NCBI GenBank assembly: GCA_024742275.1
Contig: JANSYS010000004.1
Location: 186,001 to 250,000 of the forward strand
Length of the DNA: 64,000 bases
Source of the DNA: Alphaproteobacteria bacterium
GTDB lineage: Bacteria > Pseudomonadota > Alphaproteobacteria > Thalassobaculales > Thalassobaculaceae
Reading direction: 5' to 3'
The notes below the pieces were generated by a model. The model had not been told where the DNA came from, ran no database searches, and saw only the letters and a list, made by a program, of their open reading frames with translations. The translations under genes and the position numbers were made by a program. This document shows positions 4,832 through 23,614 of the stretch, piece after piece; the stretch's first letter is position 1; every line of letters begins with the position of its first letter.

Positions 4832-5221
4832 TCAGGAGACCGGCACGGGCCAGCTTGGATCCCGGAACTCCTGGATCTCGAATCGGTAGTTCTCGATCCC
4901 GCCAAAGAATGCCGAGTAGACATTGAAGCGCTCGCTGAGCTGCGGCGGCGCTTCGAATTCCACCCCCCGACCCCTGAGTGTCTCGTAGGCGGCGTCGGTG
5001 TCGCTCACCACGAAGGAGTAGGTGACGCCCGGATCGGCCGGTGCCGGACGGTTGGTGCAAACGCCGAGAAACGCGTTCGGGGCGACCTCGTAGATATGGC
5101 AGAGATCGAACTGGTTCAGCGCAAGCCGCAGGCCGATCTTGTCGCGCAGGAACGCGGAGCCGGCGGCGAGATCCCGCGTGTAGAGGAACGTAACCTGCTG
5201 TTGGATGGTGAACGGCGGCAT
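4832..5221 (-). CDS. VOC (glyoxalase/bleomycin-resistance) family protein
   Basis: A 129-residue protein with the paired beta-alpha-beta-beta-beta layout of the vicinal oxygen chelate fold: an opening VTFLYTRDLAAGSAFLRDKIGL, a middle VTYSFVVSDTDAAYETLRGRGVEFE, and an end in YRFEIQEF. The position of the terminal Glu (FEIQEF) fits a metal ligand of the fold, but the first His ligand is not obvious, so catalysis is not certain. Members include glyoxalases, dioxygenases and antibiotic-binding proteins. It converges with the PAS gene, nine bases apart, and has no operon partner. Confidence 0.75.
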   Translation of the reverse strand: MPPFTIQQQVTFLYTRDLAAGSAFLRDKIGLRLALNQFDLCHIYEVAPNAFLGVCTNRPAPADPGVTYSFVVSDTDAAYETLRGRGVEFEAPPQLSERFNVYSAFFGGIENYRFEIQEFRDPSWPVPVS

Positions 5222-5302
5222 TGGCGTCTCCGGATCATGTTCGCGAACTGTAGAAACAGCCTACGGTCTCTGTCGAGGCTCGCTTAGGGTGCCAGCGTGC
5301 GA

Positions 5303-7273
5303 CTAGATTCGGCGGCGCTTGAGGGCGCGGACGACGAACCGGTTCGGGTGAACGGCCACGGCGGCGGCGCGCTCGATGGGCCAGGGCTCTCCGAGCATCT
5401 GCGCGACCGCCAATTCCGCCATGAGCGGAGCGGTCACCAGCCCGCGAGAGCCAAGTCCTGTCAGCGCATAGATATCTTGCAGATAGGGGGGCGACCCTCC
5501 CTCGCGGCGCCGGGCGTCCGTTCGCAGGTGCCCATAGGTCTCTCCCAGCGCCTGCGCTTCGCAGACCGGTCCGGCAATCGGTTGACGGTCTGGGGTGACC
5601 GCACGGACGGCCGCCCGCCCGCCGAGAATGGACGGCCCGTCGGGGAACAGTCGGGCAAGATCGGGAGGCATGCCGGAAAGCGTGCGCCGATGATCGTCCG
5701 CCCGCACCGGCACCGGCCACGCTCCGGGCGCGAAACCGTCGCGGGTGTAGGTGGCGCCGGCGACATGGGTGCCCGAGATCGCCGGTGAAAGATAGCCGCC
5801 GAACGCCACGCAGGCGCGCAGCCGCCGGCTTGTCGGCGTCTCCCCTATGCGGGTTAGCTGACCGCGGATCGCTTCGAGCGGCAAAGCGGCACCCGCAAGC
5901 AGTTCCGCCGATCCCATGGCGGAGGCGATGAAGACCGCTCCGACCTCGGCGAGGTGGCGTCCGGACCGGTCGAGCAGCGCCCAGCCCTCGGGGGCGCGGG
6001 TTATCCGCGCGATGTCATACCGTGCCGGTCGTTGCCCAGCGGCCAAAATGAGTGACCACAAGCGGGGATCTATCCATCCGCCGGTGCTGTGCCACAGGGC
6101 GGGCCGGTCGAGTCGTACGCCTGCCATGGCGCTGGCCTCTGCACAGTCGACCGGTCGCGCGGCGATCGGTTCGAGTCTCCCGGCGGCCGAGAGCGCAAGG
6201 AACTTTTCTGCGGCCGCGTCGTCGGTCGCCAGTTCGAGGATCCCGTTCCCGCCGAAAGCCAGGCCCGCCGACATCGCCTCGGCGGCTGCATAGCGGAAAG
6301 CGGCGCCGCTGATCCCACCCTGGACGCTGTCGTCTACCGTCGGTCGGGCCATCATAAGCCCCGCGGGGTTGCCGGAGGCCTCCGCGCCGATCCGACCGTG
6401 CCGGTCCGTCCAGAGGGTATCGATTCCCCGCCGCCGGAGGGCACTGACCAGCGCCGCGCCGCCGATGCCGGCGCCGACGACGGCCGCCCGGTTCGGCCTC
6501 CGCGCCGTCGGAGGCATGAACCATGGGGCGATCTGCGCCGATACGGGCGGCCCGTACCAATGGCCGGCGATACAGTCGCGTTTTCGTCCGAAGCCGGGCC
6601 GCTTGGCGATGTCAAACCCGACATCTGCAAGATCGCGACGCACTTGCCCTGCGGCCGTGAAACTCGCGAGCCGGGCGCCGGGCACCGACAGCCGGGCGAC
6701 CTCGCGAAGCACCTTCGGCCGCCACATCGCCGGATTTCGAGACGGTGCGAACCCGTCGAGGAACCACGCATCGACCCGGGCCTCCGTCGCGGCGAGCACG
6801 TCGGCGACCTCGCCGATCGCCAGGGTCAGGCAAACCCGGTCATCGTCGAACCAGATCCGGTGAAAGCCGGCAGTCGGCCGATCCGGGTAGCGGTCGCACA
6901 GCCGGGTCGCGAGCGTCGCTAGGGCGGGAAAGGCGGCGAGAGTATCGCCCAGTTGGGACTTGGCAATGGGGAACCCCTCCACCGCGAGATAGTGCAGGAC
7001 GCCGCCGGCCGGTCGATGCCGCCGCCAGAGGTCCCACGTCGCCAGGAAGTTCAGGCCGGTGCCGAAGCCCGTCTCCGCGATCGTGAAGCCAGCCGTTTCG
7101 GACCAGCTTTCGGGTAGACGGCAGCCATCGAGAAACACGTGCGCCGTCTCCGCCAGTCCGTTCTCGCGCGAGAAATAGACATCGTCGAAACGGCTCGAGG
7201 TCGGCACGCCGTCGCGCCACACGAGGCCCGGGTCGCGGCCGTTTGGGTCGAGGGTTTCCGTCGTCTGGTTCAT
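5303..7273 (-). CDS. mnmC: Bifunctional tRNA mnm5s2U34 biosynthesis enzyme MnmC
   Basis: The 656-residue protein carries out the last two steps of 5-methylaminomethyl-2-thiouridine formation at tRNA wobble position 34: FAD-dependent removal of the carboxymethyl group, then SAM-dependent methylation. The N-terminal methyltransferase domain shows ETGFGTGLNFL (67-77) and WFLDGFAPSRNPAMW (170-184). The FAD domain begins at VVGAGIGG (265-272) and ends with ALTGLGSRGL, the usual C-terminal FAD motif. Reading frame is open to 7444, but ATG 7273 starts the conserved domain (LVWRDGVPTSSRFDDVYFS) and removes 57 unsupported residues. It is divergent from the small gene at 7397. Confidence 0.93.
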   Translation of the reverse strand: MNQTTETLDPNGRDPGLVWRDGVPTSSRFDDVYFSRENGLAETAHVFLDGCRLPESWSETAGFTIAETGFGTGLNFLATWDLWRRHRPAGGVLHYLAVEGFPIAKSQLGDTLAAFPALATLATRLCDRYPDRPTAGFHRIWFDDDRVCLTLAIGEVADVLAATEARVDAWFLDGFAPSRNPAMWRPKVLREVARLSVPGARLASFTAAGQVRRDLADVGFDIAKRPGFGRKRDCIAGHWYGPPVSAQIAPWFMPPTARRPNRAAVVGAGIGGAALVSALRRRGIDTLWTDRHGRIGAEASGNPAGLMMARPTVDDSVQGGISGAAFRYAAAEAMSAGLAFGGNGILELATDDAAAEKFLALSAAGRLEPIAARPVDCAEASAMAGVRLDRPALWHSTGGWIDPRLWSLILAAGQRPARYDIARITRAPEGWALLDRSGRHLAEVGAVFIASAMGSAELLAGAALPLEAIRGQLTRIGETPTSRRLRACVAFGGYLSPAISGTHVAGATYTRDGFAPGAWPVPVRADDHRRTLSGMPPDLARLFPDGPSILGGRAAVRAVTPDRQPIAGPVCEAQALGETYGHLRTDARRREGGSPPYLQDIYALTGLGSRGLVTAPLMAELAVAQMLGEPWPIERAAAVAVHPNRFVVRALKRRRI

Positions 7274-7396
7274 GGCCTGACACTGCCACGGGCGGCGCGA
7301 TGCCGCCACGTTCAGGGTGACAGCGCGGACCGGTCGCGCTAAGCCTCCAAGCAACCGGGTTGCCGCTTGGTCGGGAGCCGACGCATGGAGGTCAGC

Positions 7397-7654
7397 ATGA
7401 GCGACGACGAGCAACAGCCGCCGATCCTTCCGGAGGACGAGCAAAAGCGTCTGGCGTTACGGGTCATGCTGGAGGCGTGGGACGACGCCGTGGCTCAGGG
7501 GGCGTCCTCCGAGATCGTCGCGTCGTCGGCGATCTTCGCCGCCCTGACCGATATGATCGACATCTATGGGGAAGAGACCGTTGCCGAGATGGTGGCCGAA
7601 TGGCCCGACCGGATCCGTGAAGGCGAGTTCACCCTCAAAGAGCAGGGCGACTGA
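7397..7654 (+). CDS. Small acidic conserved-type hypothetical protein
   Basis: This 85-residue acidic protein is predicted to be mostly helical (LALRVMLEAWDDAVAQ, then AIFAALTDMIDIYGEETVAEMVAEWPDRI). The ATG at 7397 has a GGAGG box nine bases upstream; an earlier in-frame Met at 7385 lacks one. I do not recognise a named family. It has no signal peptide or membrane segment, so it is cytoplasmic. It is divergent from mnmC; that pairing alone does not give a function. Confidence 0.6.
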   Translation: MSDDEQQPPILPEDEQKRLALRVMLEAWDDAVAQGASSEIVASSAIFAALTDMIDIYGEETVAEMVAEWPDRIREGEFTLKEQGD

Positions 7655-7727
7655 CGGATCCGGTCCAGCGCGCTGAATGGGTCGTATCTCGCTCCGGCGG
7701 AAGGTGTGCGGCCCGGCGCGCCGGATA

Positions 7728-8717
7728 TCAAAGATCGAAGTTGCGGCTCCAAACGTCCCGCAATGCCGAGAGTCTCGCCGCCGGAAGCGGCCCGGACTCC
7801 GCTGCCTGGAGCGCGAGCTCCAGGTGCTCCAGTTCCGCCAATCCCACCACCACGCAGGACAGATCGGCATTGGCGAGGGAGAACCGGATCGCCGTCTCGG
7901 CCCGACTCTCGCCACTGTCGCCGGCGGCTTCCATGGCGGCCCTTGCGCGTTGCGCTTCCGCTTTCAGGTCTGCGGACTCCGGGGTAATCGCCACTTCCCG
8001 TCCGTGCCGCCGGTCGGTCGCCAGCACGCCGGCGGCGAAAACCCGAATATTCATGATACCGACGTCGTGGCGTCGGCACGCCGCCATAAGCCCGCAAAAA
8101 TCTTGCGCCTGCAGCCCCTCGATCGTCTCGTCCATGGCGGCGGTCGGATTGAGCATGTTGTAGTAGACCTGAGCGCTGTCCATCTTTCCGCTTTCGACCA
8201 CCCGGATGCAGGACGCCGTGTCGCCGAGCGCGGTGAAGCCGATTTGATCGGTCAAACCCTCGCGCCGCAGACCGTCTAGCAGGTCGGCGATACCGCCATC
8301 CGCGATCACGTCATCCACGCTCACATGCTGGTCGGTCGCCTTCGGTTGGACGGGATTGTGCAGCTGAAACAGGCTCACCTTGTTCAGGCGGAGCCTGTGG
8401 AGGCTCGTCTCGATGCCCCGTCTGATCTGGCTCTCATGGCTCTCGTCGCTTGTCAGGTCGAGGCGAACCTTCGTCGAGACGTGCGGCCGTTCGGCGGTCT
8501 CGAGCTCTTCCAGCAGCCAGCCCAGGGCGATCTCCGATTGGCCCTGTCCGTAATCCCCTGCCGTGTCGATCCAGTTGATTCCGCCGTCGATCGCCCGGCG
8601 GATCGCCGCCCGTTTCACCTCGTCGTCCTGGTGGATCAGAAGGCCGCCGACCCATCCGCCGCCGAATACCAATTCGGAAATCTGCAGGCCAGTGCGGCCG
8701 AACCGACGCGTCTTCAT
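7728..8717 (-). CDS. Aldo/keto reductase
   Basis: A 329-residue NAD(P)H-dependent oxidoreductase of the (beta/alpha)8 aldo/keto reductase superfamily. The catalytic tetrad is visible: Asp51 and Tyr56 in WIDTAGDYGQG, Lys83 in VSTKVRL, and His120 in SLFQLHNP. The C-terminal part (IRFSLANADLSCVVVGL) is the coenzyme-binding end typical of the L-fucose dehydrogenase/pyridoxal reductase-like branch. The start at 8717 is preceded by a GGGAGG ribosome-binding site. It stands alone; its carbonyl substrate is not predictable. Confidence 0.88.
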   Translation of the reverse strand: MKTRRFGRTGLQISELVFGGGWVGGLLIHQDDEVKRAAIRRAIDGGINWIDTAGDYGQGQSEIALGWLLEELETAERPHVSTKVRLDLTSDESHESQIRRGIETSLHRLRLNKVSLFQLHNPVQPKATDQHVSVDDVIADGGIADLLDGLRREGLTDQIGFTALGDTASCIRVVESGKMDSAQVYYNMLNPTAAMDETIEGLQAQDFCGLMAACRRHDVGIMNIRVFAAGVLATDRRHGREVAITPESADLKAEAQRARAAMEAAGDSGESRAETAIRFSLANADLSCVVVGLAELEHLELALQAAESGPLPAARLSALRDVWSRNFDL

Positions 8718-17289: not shown

Positions 17290-19641
<2,352 letters not shown>

Positions 19642-21066: not shown

Positions 21067-21303
21067 ATGACCTTTGCCAGCGCACTGATATCGATCGCCG
21101 AAGCCTATGCATGGATCGGCACGGGAGTCGCCGCACTCTTTCTGCTGTGGGGCGTCGACCGCATCGATCCCTCGGCACGGGGGGCCTACCTGTTCCGCCT
21201 GCTGGCATTGCCGGGCGTCGTCGGTCTCTGGCCGCTGGTCCTGTGGCGCTGGTTCTTCCGGCCCGCGCCGGATGGTGGGACCGGAACCGGGGAGGCGGTC
21301 TGA
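21067..21303 (+). CDS. Small membrane protein, first gene of the Rieske/ferric-reductase-like operon
   Basis: This 78-residue protein has two hydrophobic segments (about 15-28 and 42-62, the second LFRLLALPGVVGLWPLVLWRWFF). The start ATG 21067 follows a GGGAGCGGCGG box. Its TGA overlaps the next ATG by one base, so translation is coupled. It looks like a small inner-membrane subunit. I do not recognise a named family; its function should be read from the operon, which appears to encode a membrane redox module. Confidence 0.6.
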   Translation: MTFASALISIAEAYAWIGTGVAALFLLWGVDRIDPSARGAYLFRLLALPGVVGLWPLVLWRWFFRPAPDGGTGTGEAV

Positions 21304-21446
21304 TGCAGGCCCCCTGGCGCCGGGCCCATCGCCGGCTCTGGCCGGCTCTGACGCTTGTTCTGGCGCTCGGGCTTGTGCTGGGCGTGGCGATGAAGCAGGA
21401 GCGTCCGGTCGAGCCGGGCGCGGTGATCGAAGGGGCGCGGCAATGA
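21303..21446 (+). CDS. Very small single-span membrane protein (47 aa)
   Basis: A positively charged start (MQAPWRRAHRRLW) precedes one hydrophobic segment (residues 14-29, PALTLVLALGLVLGVA), then a short acidic tail. The start overlaps the previous stop (TGATG) and its stop overlaps the next start (ATGA), so the small frame is locked into a chain of coupled genes, which is the main support for its reality. The tail would lie in the periplasm under the positive-inside rule. Such short subunits often assist assembly of membrane redox complexes, but this is inference. Confidence 0.55.
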   Translation: MQAPWRRAHRRLWPALTLVLALGLVLGVAMKQERPVEPGAVIEGARQ

Positions 21447-22504
21447 GCGCGGCGTACCGGCCGGTCCAGTGGACCCGCTTCAAACTCGCCTACGACGCCG
21501 CGCTTGGCCTCGGCGTCGCGGCCTATCTCATCCTGTATCTGCGCTTTGCTCCGGGATGGCTTGAAGTCCCGGGTATCGGCGGCGCGGAACTTCGGATGCG
21601 GGCCTTCGGTACCTGCGCCTTCTGGATGCTGACGGTGATCCTCTGCATCGGTCCGCTGGCTCGCCTGGATCGGCGTTTCCTTCCGGTGCTCTACAACCGC
21701 CGGCATTTCGGCGTGCTCACCCTCTTCGTCGTGCTCGCCCACATGTATGCCGTGCTGGGATGGTATGCGGCGTTCTCGCCGATCGATCCATGGACGGCGA
21801 TGCTGACCGCCAATACGGACGTCACCTCCTTTGTCGGCTTCCCCTTCGAGTGGCTCGGCATGGCGGCCTTGGCGATCCTGTTCGCCATGGCCGCGACCAG
21901 CCATGATTTCTGGCTCGCGTTTCTCGGCCCGAAGACCTGGAAAACGCTGCACATGCTGGTCTACCTGGCCTACGGGCTGGTGGTGATGCATGTGGTCCTG
22001 GGCGTCGTCCAGGCGGAGGAGAGTGGCGCGTTCCCGACCATGGTGGCGGTCAGCCTGGCGCTGGTCGGCGGGCTGCACATCGCCGCCGGTCGGGTCGAGC
22101 ACCGCATCGACAGGGCCCATGCGGCGCTCGACCTGGCGGACGGTGGTTGGATCCGCGCCCTGCGGATCGACGAGTTGGAGGATGGCCGCGGACGAACCGT
22201 GACCCTGCCAAGCGGCGAGCGCGCGGCGGTTTTCCGATACGGGGCCAAGATCTCGGCGCTCTGGAACGCCTGTGCCCACCAGAACGGTCCGCTCGGGGAG
22301 GGACGGATCCTCGACGGTTGCGTCACCTGCCCCTGGCACGGCTTCCAGTACGACCCGGAGACCGGCTGCGCCCCGGCTCCCTTCACCGAGAAGGTGCCGA
22401 CGTTCCGGGTGCGACGGGACGGCGACTACGTGCTGATCGATCCCAGGGCCTTGCCGCCGGGGACCAGGACGCCGCCCATCGTTCTCGAGGAGACCAAGCC
22501 ATGA
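21443..22504 (+). CDS. Ferric-reductase-like transmembrane/Rieske [2Fe-2S] fusion protein
   Basis: This 353-residue protein joins two redox modules. Residues 15-215 contain about six membrane helices of the ferric reductase/MsrQ-like type; His88, His100, His170 and His183 are placed to bind two b haems (RRHFGVLTLFVVLAHMY and LHMLVYLAYGLVVMHVV). Residues 250-335 form a Rieske domain: Cys277-x-His279 (CAHQNGPLG) and Cys296-x-x-His299 (CPWHGFQY) bind a [2Fe-2S] cluster, and the surrounding YDPETG is typical of ferredoxin-like Rieske proteins. No FAD/NAD domain is attached. Electron transfer between haems and the Rieske centre across the membrane is likely; the donor and acceptor are unknown. Start and stop both overlap neighbours (ATGA). 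Confidence 0.85.
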   Translation: MSAAYRPVQWTRFKLAYDAALGLGVAAYLILYLRFAPGWLEVPGIGGAELRMRAFGTCAFWMLTVILCIGPLARLDRRFLPVLYNRRHFGVLTLFVVLAHMYAVLGWYAAFSPIDPWTAMLTANTDVTSFVGFPFEWLGMAALAILFAMAATSHDFWLAFLGPKTWKTLHMLVYLAYGLVVMHVVLGVVQAEESGAFPTMVAVSLALVGGLHIAAGRVEHRIDRAHAALDLADGGWIRALRIDELEDGRGRTVTLPSGERAAVFRYGAKISALWNACAHQNGPLGEGRILDGCVTCPWHGFQYDPETGCAPAPFTEKVPTFRVRRDGDYVLIDPRALPPGTRTPPIVLEETKP

Positions 22505-23283
22505 GCCGGCCCGACTCCGGGAAGGACCCGTTCTTCGTCGGGTATGCGCCGACGCCGAAAGCGCTGGTCGGGTTCCTCGCCGTCGTCGCGGGTGCCGTGA
22601 TCGGCGGGGGTATGGCGGCCGCGGCCGTTCTCGCGATGGCCCAGGGGGACTGGGGGGCGGCGTCGTTCAAATGGGGCGACGGGTATCAGACCCGAACCGG
22701 CGTTCTCGCTGCCGCACCCTATCCGGTGCTCTACCAGCCGCCGAGCCCGGACTATCCGCAGGGACGCGCCGTCGTCCTTTCGGGTCAGGGGAAGCGGGGC
22801 GTGCAGCAGGTCGCCACCGAACTCGACGGCCGCCCGGCTGATGTGGGCGGCATCGCGCTGGGGCGCGACGAGGTCGGGGTGGAGTTCATCCAGGTCGGCG
22901 GCGAGGTGAAACTGCGTTCGGCAGAGGACTCGGGCTCCGTTCCTGTCGGCTGGACCCCGCCGACAGAGGATCTCGGCCCGCGCACGCTGAAGGGCGAGAT
23001 CGTCGACAGCAAGTGCTACCTCGGTGCGATGCGCCCTGGATCGGGCAAGACCCACAAGCTCTGCGCCAACCTGTGCCTGGTCGGCGGCATACCGCCGATG
23101 TTCGTGGTCTATCGGGAGGAGGGGGCGCCGTTGGTCATGCTGTTGGGCGTTGCCGAAGGCGCGCCGATCCCGGACGCCCTGTTGGACCACACCAGCCACT
23201 ACGTCGAGCTGTCGGGCCGCGTGGAACGGCGCGCCGATCTGCTGATCTTTCTGGTCGATCCCGCGTCGGTGAGGCGGCTGTGA
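22501..23283 (+). CDS. Membrane-anchored protein with conserved-looking cysteine cluster
   Basis: A 260-residue protein with one membrane span (about 20-46, ALVGFLAVVAGAVIGGGMAAAA). The remainder is probably extracytoplasmic and beta-rich. Near residues 165-200 lies GEIVDSKCYLGAMRPG followed by KTHKLCANLCLVGGIPP, bringing three cysteines (172, 188, 192) and a histidine (185) together; this looks like a metal or haem site or a disulfide site. The start overlaps the fusion protein stop (ATGA), so it is very probably its functional partner. I cannot name the family. A redox or metal-handling partner of the Rieske protein is the working idea. Confidence 0.6.
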   Translation: MSRPDSGKDPFFVGYAPTPKALVGFLAVVAGAVIGGGMAAAAVLAMAQGDWGAASFKWGDGYQTRTGVLAAAPYPVLYQPPSPDYPQGRAVVLSGQGKRGVQQVATELDGRPADVGGIALGRDEVGVEFIQVGGEVKLRSAEDSGSVPVGWTPPTEDLGPRTLKGEIVDSKCYLGAMRPGSGKTHKLCANLCLVGGIPPMFVVYREEGAPLVMLLGVAEGAPIPDALLDHTSHYVELSGRVERRADLLIFLVDPASVRRL

Positions 23284-23374
23284 CGGGCTCGCGAACGATG
23301 TTCGGTTCGAGCGTGCGGGCCGCCTGCCGCCGCGTCGCTTCGGCGGAGGGATTGGACACAGGGGAGGTGAGCGA

Positions 23375-23614
23375 ATGGCCCATCTGATCCGTCTAGCGGT
23401 GACCGTTCTCGTCGGCGTCGCCCTGTGGAAGCTCTGGGTCGGCTTCAACGTGGAAATCCTGGATGTGGATATCGTCGCGTTCGACGGTCTGCGGCGCCAG
23501 TTGCGGGGAACCTGGCTCTGGGATCTGAGGTATCCTCTGATTCCGGTCTACGCCGTTCTGGCTCTCTGGATCGCGGAGCAGGTGGCGGCGCGGCTTCCGA
23601 CGGGGCGGGGCTGA
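23375..23614 (+). CDS. Small membrane protein, last gene of the redox operon
   Basis: The 79-residue product has hydrophobic segments at 4-22 and 55-70 with a charged middle (DVDIVAFDGLRRQLRGTW). The ATG at 23375 has a GGGGAGGTGAGCG box. It lies 91 bp after the cysteine-cluster gene with no terminator visible between them, so it may be the fifth operon member. The family is not recognised. It converges with the AbrB-type gene six bases away. Confidence 0.5.
   Translation: MAHLIRLAVTVLVGVALWKLWVGFNVEILDVDIVAFDGLRRQLRGTWLWDLRYPLIPVYAVLALWIAEQVAARLPTGRG

Follow-up and report, generated by a model that had tools for sequence, protein, structure and literature searches.

A conserved alphaproteobacterial gene module built around a predicted ferric-reductase-type cytochrome with a Rieske domain

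Here we describe five neighbouring genes, A to E, in a 64,000-nucleotide stretch of DNA (henceforth referred to as the window; positions 186,001 to 250,000 of contig JANSYS010000004.1, assembly GCA_024742275.1) from a bacterium of the alphaproteobacterial family Thalassobaculaceae. The row A-B-C-D(-E) is strongly supported as a conserved module that travels together through many Alphaproteobacteria, with carriers that include Pseudovibrio, Nisaea, relatives of Roseobacter and Rhizobium plasmids. The product of C is, as judged from its sequence, a six-helix cytochrome of the ferric-reductase/NOX/STEAP type with predicted haem-type histidines and a ferredoxin-type Rieske domain, and D encodes a membrane-anchored protein without family; both proteins hold invariant residues, and in part of the genomes the module co-occurs with enzymes that carry a Rieske domain of their own. 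We tentatively propose that A to E form an inner-membrane complex that relays electrons between cytosolic Rieske flavoenzymes and the periplasmic protein D, which, if true, would be an electron route across the bacterial inner membrane beyond the textbook respiratory complexes.

Results

Layout and conservation of the gene row

The five genes lie on the forward strand of the window as follows.

Gene A, 21067-21303, + strand: 78 residues, two-span membrane protein
Gene B, 21303-21446, + strand: 47 residues, single-span protein
Gene C, 21443-22504, + strand: 353 residues, ferric-reductase-domain cytochrome with ferredoxin-type Rieske domain, as predicted from Pfam, alignment, model and fold search
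Gene D, 22501-23283, + strand: 260 residues, membrane-anchored tandem OB-fold protein, without family
Gene E, 23375-23614, + strand: 79 residues, two-span membrane protein (by hydropathy), least conserved and sometimes absent

An earlier interpretation of this DNA, made from its letters only (the sequence-only reading), had given coordinates, lengths and residues that all agree with the sequence, and its description of the first four genes as chained by overlapping stop and start codons is confirmed: A and B overlap by 1 base, B and C as well as C and D by the four bases ATGA, and 91 bases separate D from E.

When 146 relatives were searched with D, a match was obtained in 20 genomes, the weaker ones aligning only with the C-terminal part of D; in the fetched loci with a full-length D, C was directly upstream in each, A nearly always present and B mostly so. 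Three annotated Rhizobium plasmids carry the same gene row under the names hypothetical, hypothetical, Rieske domain protein, hypothetical and hypothetical. A larger set selected by D consisted of the best 80 of 405 stretches that encode a D relative, obtained by scanning a collection of species genomes with a D alignment, and these 80 loci are not independent of one another. C adjoins D in 80/80 of them (79 by filter, plus locus L096, in which the two are fused), with C cut by a contig end or broken in six (L043, L053, L068, L084, L106 and L110). A is present in 75/80, B in 75/80 and E in 65/80, the last counted by profile only, which missed an E-like open reading frame (ORF) in L087; all five genes are found in 59/72 uncut loci (58 plus the C-D fusion of L096).

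Selection by C gave the same picture. C was searched with an alignment (A2) itself built from module members, and was found in 18/385 genomes drawn from the class and in 7/398 genomes drawn from the phylum, a draw whose share from outside the window's class is not stated; all seven belong to the window's class. Among the 21 genomes pooled from both draws, the window's own included, A and B stand beside C in 21/21, D in 19/21 and E (by profile) in 13/21, so that the row A-B-C-D recurs in 19/21. In two C-selected loci where D is absent (L128 and L130), a Rieske-FMN_red protein directly follows C. The sequence-only reading had supposed a fixed gene set and had suggested looking for its co-occurrence across genomes; the genes do co-occur, and with the fixed module so strongly supported, the objection that they might not keep together falls away.

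Comparison of codons with four relatives gave uncorrected ratios of non-synonymous to synonymous differences (pN/pS) of 0.43-0.56 for A, 0.55-0.63 for B, 0.27-0.36 for C and 0.51-0.53 for D, which suggests purifying selection on A to D; in the same uncorrected comparison the constraint on E was the weakest (0.60-1.00, with 1.0 in one comparison). The small proteins matched no family: with A, Pfam returned only DUF5337 at E 0.18, under its cut-off, and B, E and also D had no Pfam match up to E 1. The conserved residues of A are G18, F25, R32, F43, R44, P49, W55, P56, R61 and W62, with no conserved cysteine or histidine among them, and B has R6 and H9 conserved. In 37/80 D-selected loci a single ORF spans A and B. 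Since the profile did not find E in nine Pseudovibrio loci, E is regarded as accessory. A and B, which together make a three-span protein where they are fused, and E may be small helper subunits.

C is predicted to combine a two-haem membrane core with a cytosolic Rieske domain

The features of C in the window are listed below.

Ferric-reductase domain, residues 56-180, 21608-21982, + strand: Pfam Ferric_reduct, E 3e-12
Haem-type histidines H88 (21704-21706), H100 (21740-21742) and H170 (21950-21952), + strand: invariant in 17 aligned sequences
Haem-type histidine H183, 21989-21991, + strand: just past the Pfam match, invariant in 17 aligned sequences
Rieske domain, residues 236-321, 22148-22405, + strand: Pfam Rieske (E 1e-13), PDB profile search and fold search
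Rieske ligands C277 (22271-22273), H279 (22277-22279), C296 (22328-22330) and H299 (22337-22339), + strand: alignment

Pfam gave these two domains only, so that the absence of a flavin or nicotinamide adenine dinucleotide (NAD) domain from C, as the sequence-only reading had it, holds. The Ferric_reduct match (PF01794; 47 bits against a cut-off of 28) makes C a member of the ferric-reductase-domain (FRD) superfamily, and the Rieske match (51.5 bits against 20.3) comes with the ligand pattern C-x-H ... C-x2-H. The candidate haem histidines 88, 100, 170 and 183 and the Rieske ligands, all singled out in that reading, are invariant in 17 sequences (the window plus 16 relatives, as in the 17-sequence alignment of D), and so is H154. 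The nearest NCBIfam families all scored far below their cut-offs (dioxygenase ferredoxin 50 of 150 bits, MsrQ 42.2 of 130, MamZ 39 of 650). H100, H170 and H183 align with histidines of two MsrQ sequences that lie above the family cut-off, H88 being extra; its position holds M, A and Y in these two and one MsrQ-like sequence.

A structure model computed on the C-D fusion of L096 shows six helices and, after them, a beta domain of the Rieske type (predicted local distance difference test, pLDDT, 81.5; predicted template-modelling score, pTM, 0.59). Fold searching with C returned ferredoxins of dioxygenases (TM-score to the target up to 0.88) and STEAP1/NOX5, and its transmembrane part had no match among PDB sequences. 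Loop charges place the N-terminus, the loop between helices 2 and 3 and the Rieske domain in the cytosol, so both ends of C, including the Rieske domain, are predicted to be cytosolic. Domain make-up, the four haem-type histidines and the fold matches to STEAP1/NOX5 and dioxygenase ferredoxins support the membrane electron-transfer role put forward in the sequence-only reading. Its more specific suggestion, electron flow between quinol or haem and an unnamed partner, is not borne out: the genome comparison below points instead to Rieske-fused cytosolic enzymes on one side, in part of the genomes, and to D on the other.

Such a core raises two alternatives. C might act like a NOX or ferric reductase, reducing O2 or ferric or cupric ions extracellularly with D as an accessory, and its four-histidine core is indeed that of long-form FRE/NOX proteins in the available part of PMC3591440. 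We nevertheless think this very improbable, as C has neither a flavin adenine dinucleotide (FAD) nor an NAD(P)H domain and no iron-transport gene is among the recurrent neighbours identified, which are part of all neighbours. To our knowledge, moreover, a dedicated invariant periplasmic partner such as D is unusual for NOX/FRE. The module might alternatively repair periplasmic methionine sulfoxide or other oxidative damage as an analogue of MsrPQ. C is MsrQ-like in its score, a methionine sulfoxide reductase gene (MsrA) is found next after E in L052 and at distances from D of 2.8 kb (L057) and 7.1 kb (L111), KatG is near L112, GST is found in 7 Pseudovibrio loci, and in genome G006 a true MsrQ lies 26 kb from C on the same contig. 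MsrA is, however, near only 3/80 loci, C is far under the MsrQ cut-off and has the additional haem-type histidine, and two genomes with C (G006 and G285) already have a true MsrQ as well. A repair function of the MsrPQ type is therefore possible yet poorly supported, and in our estimate improbable.

D carries an invariant Cys-His-Cys-Cys set

The features of D in the window are as follows.

N-terminal membrane helix, residues 20-47, 22558-22641, + strand: model and hydropathy
First OB-like domain, residues 55-145, 22663-22935, + strand: model and fold search
Second OB-like domain, residues 154-260, 22960-23280, + strand: model; homologous to SCO1-linked small proteins
C172 (23014-23016), H185 (23053-23055), C188 (23062-23064) and C192 (23074-23076), + strand: on two inserted helices

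The model of D, computed with a 57-row alignment (A3; the window and 56 loci, with L063, which has a split D, and 23 other loci left out), has one membrane helix and two OB folds (pLDDT 90.4, pTM 0.82). The cysteines C172, C188 and C192, whose clustering the sequence-only reading had pointed out, are invariant in the 17-sequence and the 57-row alignments, and H185 can be added to them, all four residues being invariant in 57/57 sequences. In the model H185, C188 and C192 share one helix at spacings of 3 and 4, with C172 on the preceding helix, an arrangement suggestive of a thiol centre or of a site for a metal or Fe-S cluster. D had no match in NCBIfam. Its matches to PDB sequences were meaningless (E 0.78 or worse), and its fold matches were generic OB folds (SSB, PriB, RPA, potempin and YgiW; best Z 7.8, in the common range) from which no function follows; YgiW (1nnx), at E 0.11 and probability 0.96, was among them with no sequence match of D to Pfam.

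By hhalign (E 2e-10, probability 96.8) the second domain of D has homologues among small secreted proteins, and it shares with them the pattern C...HxxCxxxC. Thirteen loci with such a protein were inspected, and in 12/13 a SCO1/SenC-type ORF lies on the same strand within the same 3-kb stretch (two checked with Pfam); a second draw, partly of the same genomes, gave a SCO1/SenC-type ORF in 4/5 loci with a solitary D relative. In L052 the module, a glutamate-synthase-type enzyme with a Rieske domain (Rieske-GltS), a thiamine-pyrophosphate enzyme with one (Rieske-TPP), a solitary D relative and SCO1 all lie within 10 kb. Given the SCO1 link, copper or thiol chemistry is the leading idea for D. 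The module also offers an entry to the unassigned Cys-His proteins found beside SCO1.

The same observations can be read as copper or oxidase maturation, with C feeding D as a SCO-like reductant or copper carrier that keeps periplasmic thiols or Cu(I) reduced, to the benefit of cytochrome oxidase or some other cuproenzyme. The homology of the second domain, the SCO1/SenC-type ORFs in both draws and the assemblage in L052 speak for it; on the other hand SCO1 is near the module in 1/80 loci, D has no match to the SCO1/SenC domain (PF02630; Pfam up to E 1), and, of the 5/190 genomes in which the solitary family was detected, only G006 is among those listed with C. We consider this explanation rather improbable.

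Two further observations concern the SCO1-linked proteins. Alphaproteobacterial SCO1/SenC genes (L016-L019 and L022-L029) are accompanied by a secreted protein with the pattern WC...HxxCAxWC and often also by a second secreted cysteine protein with the pattern LCELTGDCPxNCG; one tested pair comprising both kinds had no Pfam match. The second kind (A8) gave no meaningful match to D (hhalign probability 7.6) and D was not grouped with it on that account.

Rieske-fused enzymes recur beside the module

Enzymes of two types, each bearing a Rieske domain at its N-terminus, are found repeatedly beside the module: an enzyme with a Glu_synthase domain that binds flavin mononucleotide (FMN), and the TPP enzyme, which is nearest to pyruvate oxidase. 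Within 10 kb of D the GltS type is present in 34/80 loci; copies on the same strand lie upstream in 24 of these and downstream in 7, the other 3 being on the opposite strand, and the Rieske motif shows in 32 of the 34. Clustering places the TPP type in 20/80 loci, and the motif is seen in 19 of them. Either enzyme, or both, with a Rieske motif is found in 39/80 loci, a number reached from the 42 loci of the motif scan after L078, L083 and L102, whose motif ORFs are unlike GltS or TPP, were dropped.

Co-occurrence was counted in the 385-genome draw, a set of 24 genomes being left out as six of them had been picked for having D; the draws for C, Rieske-GltS and Rieske-TPP were taken to be the same 385 genomes from their equal tallies (385, 315 and 276) and shared handles. 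C is present in 7 of the 8 genomes with full-length Rieske-GltS (hypergeometric P 1e-9) and in 6 of the 14 with Rieske-TPP (P 1e-5), both P values ignoring the relatedness of the genomes. The eighth Rieske-GltS genome, listed without C, is 67% complete. A GltS whose N-terminus is of the CDGSH type was found in 4 genomes, at 65-67% identity, and 0/4 of these are listed with C, a sorting that covers close GltS matches only (E 1e-150 or better). Genomes with C also have weaker GltS homologues; a fifth candidate genome, G378, is cut by a contig end. At the level of single loci (L141-L144, L154 and L045 at 6824-8440), the same Glu_synthase FMN enzyme has a tandem CDGSH-type or a Rieske N-terminus, depending on the genome. 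Some genes on haloarchaeal plasmids and on one Mycobacteroides plasmid (H11-H14 and H22), whose annotation is thiamine pyrophosphate-binding protein, are also matched by the Rieske domain of C, and Rieske-TPP fusions seem to reach well past the range of the module.

Discussion

The picture that follows is inferred as regards occupancy by haems and cluster, assembly into a complex, sidedness, direction of flow, the cofactor of D and the substrate or final acceptor. A to E would form one inner-membrane complex in which single electrons are relayed between cytosol and periplasm, C combining a ferric-reductase-type core of six helices and two haems with a ferredoxin-type Rieske cluster on the cytosolic side. 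D, anchored in the membrane with both OB folds periplasmic, would serve C as its dedicated partner there by means of a Cys-His-Cys-Cys site that is probably either metal-binding (copper or Fe-S) or a thiol redox centre. The donor may be a cytosolic flavoenzyme with a Rieske domain of its own, namely Rieske-GltS, the Rieske-TPP enzyme or a Rieske-FMN reductase, depending on the genome. With the order of redox centres taken from the domain layout, the most likely path would lead from the donor to the Rieske cluster of C, an inner haem (H88/H170), an outer haem (H100/H183), D and a periplasmic acceptor. One could extend this to a 'Rieske bus', in which C is a membrane port and these differing cytosolic enzymes each gained a Rieske domain to plug into one two-haem relay, with D as a new class of periplasmic OB-fold redox protein at its other end; we regard this extension as doubtful. 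A mark of such plugging in would be that, where the module is present, one and the same GltS enzyme bears Rieske in place of CDGSH. The candidate cytosolic partners lend themselves to direct testing by virtue of their Rieske domains.

Several observations weigh against the proposed relay. The window's own genome has four Rieske matches at E 1e-5, C among them, and neither Rieske-GltS nor Rieske-TPP was found in it, so that its electron donor is not accounted for. More widely, Rieske-GltS is absent from 11/18 and Rieske-TPP from 12/18 genomes with C, C is absent from 8/14 genomes with Rieske-TPP, and both P values leave relatedness out of account. In the model of the fused L096 protein D is not docked (linker pLDDT below 50, pTM 0.59), and the fusion, a single in-frame protein of 611 residues at 4834-6669 (+ strand) in one Roseobacter metagenome-assembled genome only, could be real or an assembly indel. 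The fold of D is a generic one, and its invariant residues might instead bind structural zinc or form a disulfide. Finally, the profile misses E in 15/80 loci, two of them cut by a contig end just after D, so E is not essential.

The electrons might also run the other way, from the quinol pool or the periplasm over the haems and the Rieske cluster of C to cytosolic Rieske-fused enzymes that need a dedicated reductant. FMN domains of glutamate synthases are classically fed by a 2Fe-2S ferredoxin, and Rieske-GltS both lies near the module and co-occurs with C, as counted above. MsrQ, by domain the nearest characterised relative of C, draws its electrons from quinol. It appears as a quinone-binding subunit in the available part of PMC8238504. 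By contrast, the Rieske-TPP neighbour, being pyruvate-oxidase-like, would be expected to donate electrons, and the retention of D, on the presumed periplasmic side, in 19/21 genomes is easier to reconcile with a periplasmic partner than with quinol alone. Owing to the glutamate-synthase link we keep reversed flow in view, as an unlikely though by no means negligible alternative to the outward relay proposed here.

Other neighbours and observations

Other recurrent neighbours (the GST and ABC genes of Pseudovibrio, TctA, a TupA-like binding protein, arginase, AMP-binding, CoA transferase and OpgC) look like synteny within single clades and were for this reason not used as functional evidence. 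In Roseobacter-type loci (L066, L089, L096, L100 and L101) a solute-binding protein (Pfam PBP_like_2), which we take to resemble the tungstate-binding TupA, lies about 2.7-4.5 kb downstream of D, with a multi-4Fe-4S protein beyond it. The flanking genes of the window are rarely near the module in relatives and were thus left out of it: a 506-residue CxxCH protein, a desuccinylase-like gene and a solute-binding protein were near the module in 0/80 loci, AbrB in 1/80 and an enolase-family gene in 6/80, the last being adjacent in the four nearest relatives. The 506-residue protein (18121-19641, - strand) has a signal-peptide-like start and one CxxCH, matched nothing in Pfam up to E 1, and is possibly an unclassified monohaem cytochrome; none of the 80 relatives has it within 10 kb of the module. 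Elsewhere in the window's genome, L172 (136-1803, - strand) has a Rieske domain joined to a stretch of over 400 residues for which Pfam gave no family at E 0.001.

Comparison with known systems

Cytochrome bc1/b6f was considered and set aside, as the Rieske domain of C is predicted to be cytosolic and resembles dioxygenase ferredoxins, and the core is PF01794 and not a bc-type cytochrome b; the window's genome has a separate pair of genes that we take, from motifs, to be a Rieske protein and cytochrome b. The best sequence and fold match of the Rieske domain is to the Rieske ferredoxins of ring-hydroxylating dioxygenases (CarAc and NdoA type), from which C differs in that its domain is fused to a membrane protein and has no regular oxygenase neighbour; the motif scan of the 80 loci showed one oxygenase-like Rieske ORF, 9 kb away in L102. 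The SCO1-linked small proteins have a single domain and no C gene in their 3-kb stretches, whereas D adds an anchor and the other OB domain. Fusions of CDGSH with glutamate synthase are known as type 5 CISDs in the available part of PMC3174974; Rieske-GltS shares the FMN enzyme domain with these, the Rieske domain replacing the tandem CDGSH-type motifs.

MsrQ of the MsrPQ system is, as C is predicted to be, a six-helix ferric-reductase-domain cytochrome with a periplasmic partner, and three haem-type histidines align. C differs from it by the fourth haem-type histidine and the Rieske domain predicted in the cytosol, is by its score not a member of the MsrQ family (NF003831), and has D, not a molybdoenzyme, as its partner gene. 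In the window the scan covered the five genes and three that flank them, and MsrP is not one of these; nor is it among the recurrent neighbours in relatives, the only neighbours identified there. With the long forms of NOX/FRE and with STEAP, C shares the four-histidine, presumably two-haem, core and the fold matches to NOX5 and STEAP1; in C a Rieske domain takes the place of the FAD and NAD(P)H domains of NOX/FRE, and D and small subunits are added. The four-histidine rule for NOX/FRE is taken from the available part of PMC3591440, which ties this set to long-form proteins and not to YedZ; no NOX sequence was in our alignment.

The statement of the sequence-only reading that no named system has this composition stands for Pfam, NCBIfam and the open-licence literature; the pairing of the two domains of C, though, appears in a 2013 review by Zhang et al. 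as architecture 'M4' (PMC3591440). In the available part of that source M4 is listed also with FMN, and no operon, partner or function is given. The operon, D and the pairing with Rieske-fused enzymes had no description in open-licence full texts, preprints and most subscription papers lying outside that search. The transmembrane principle is known; the Rieske input here, the partner D and the helper subunits are undescribed within the literature searched. Bacterial NOX enzymes have been studied since 2013. In that year YedZ/MsrQ was the sole characterised one among 1,755 bacterial ferric-reductase-domain proteins, according to the available part of PMC3591440. Roles are known for few such proteins, and the module would be a conserved complex of this type with an unusual input domain, Rieske, and a new partner family, D.

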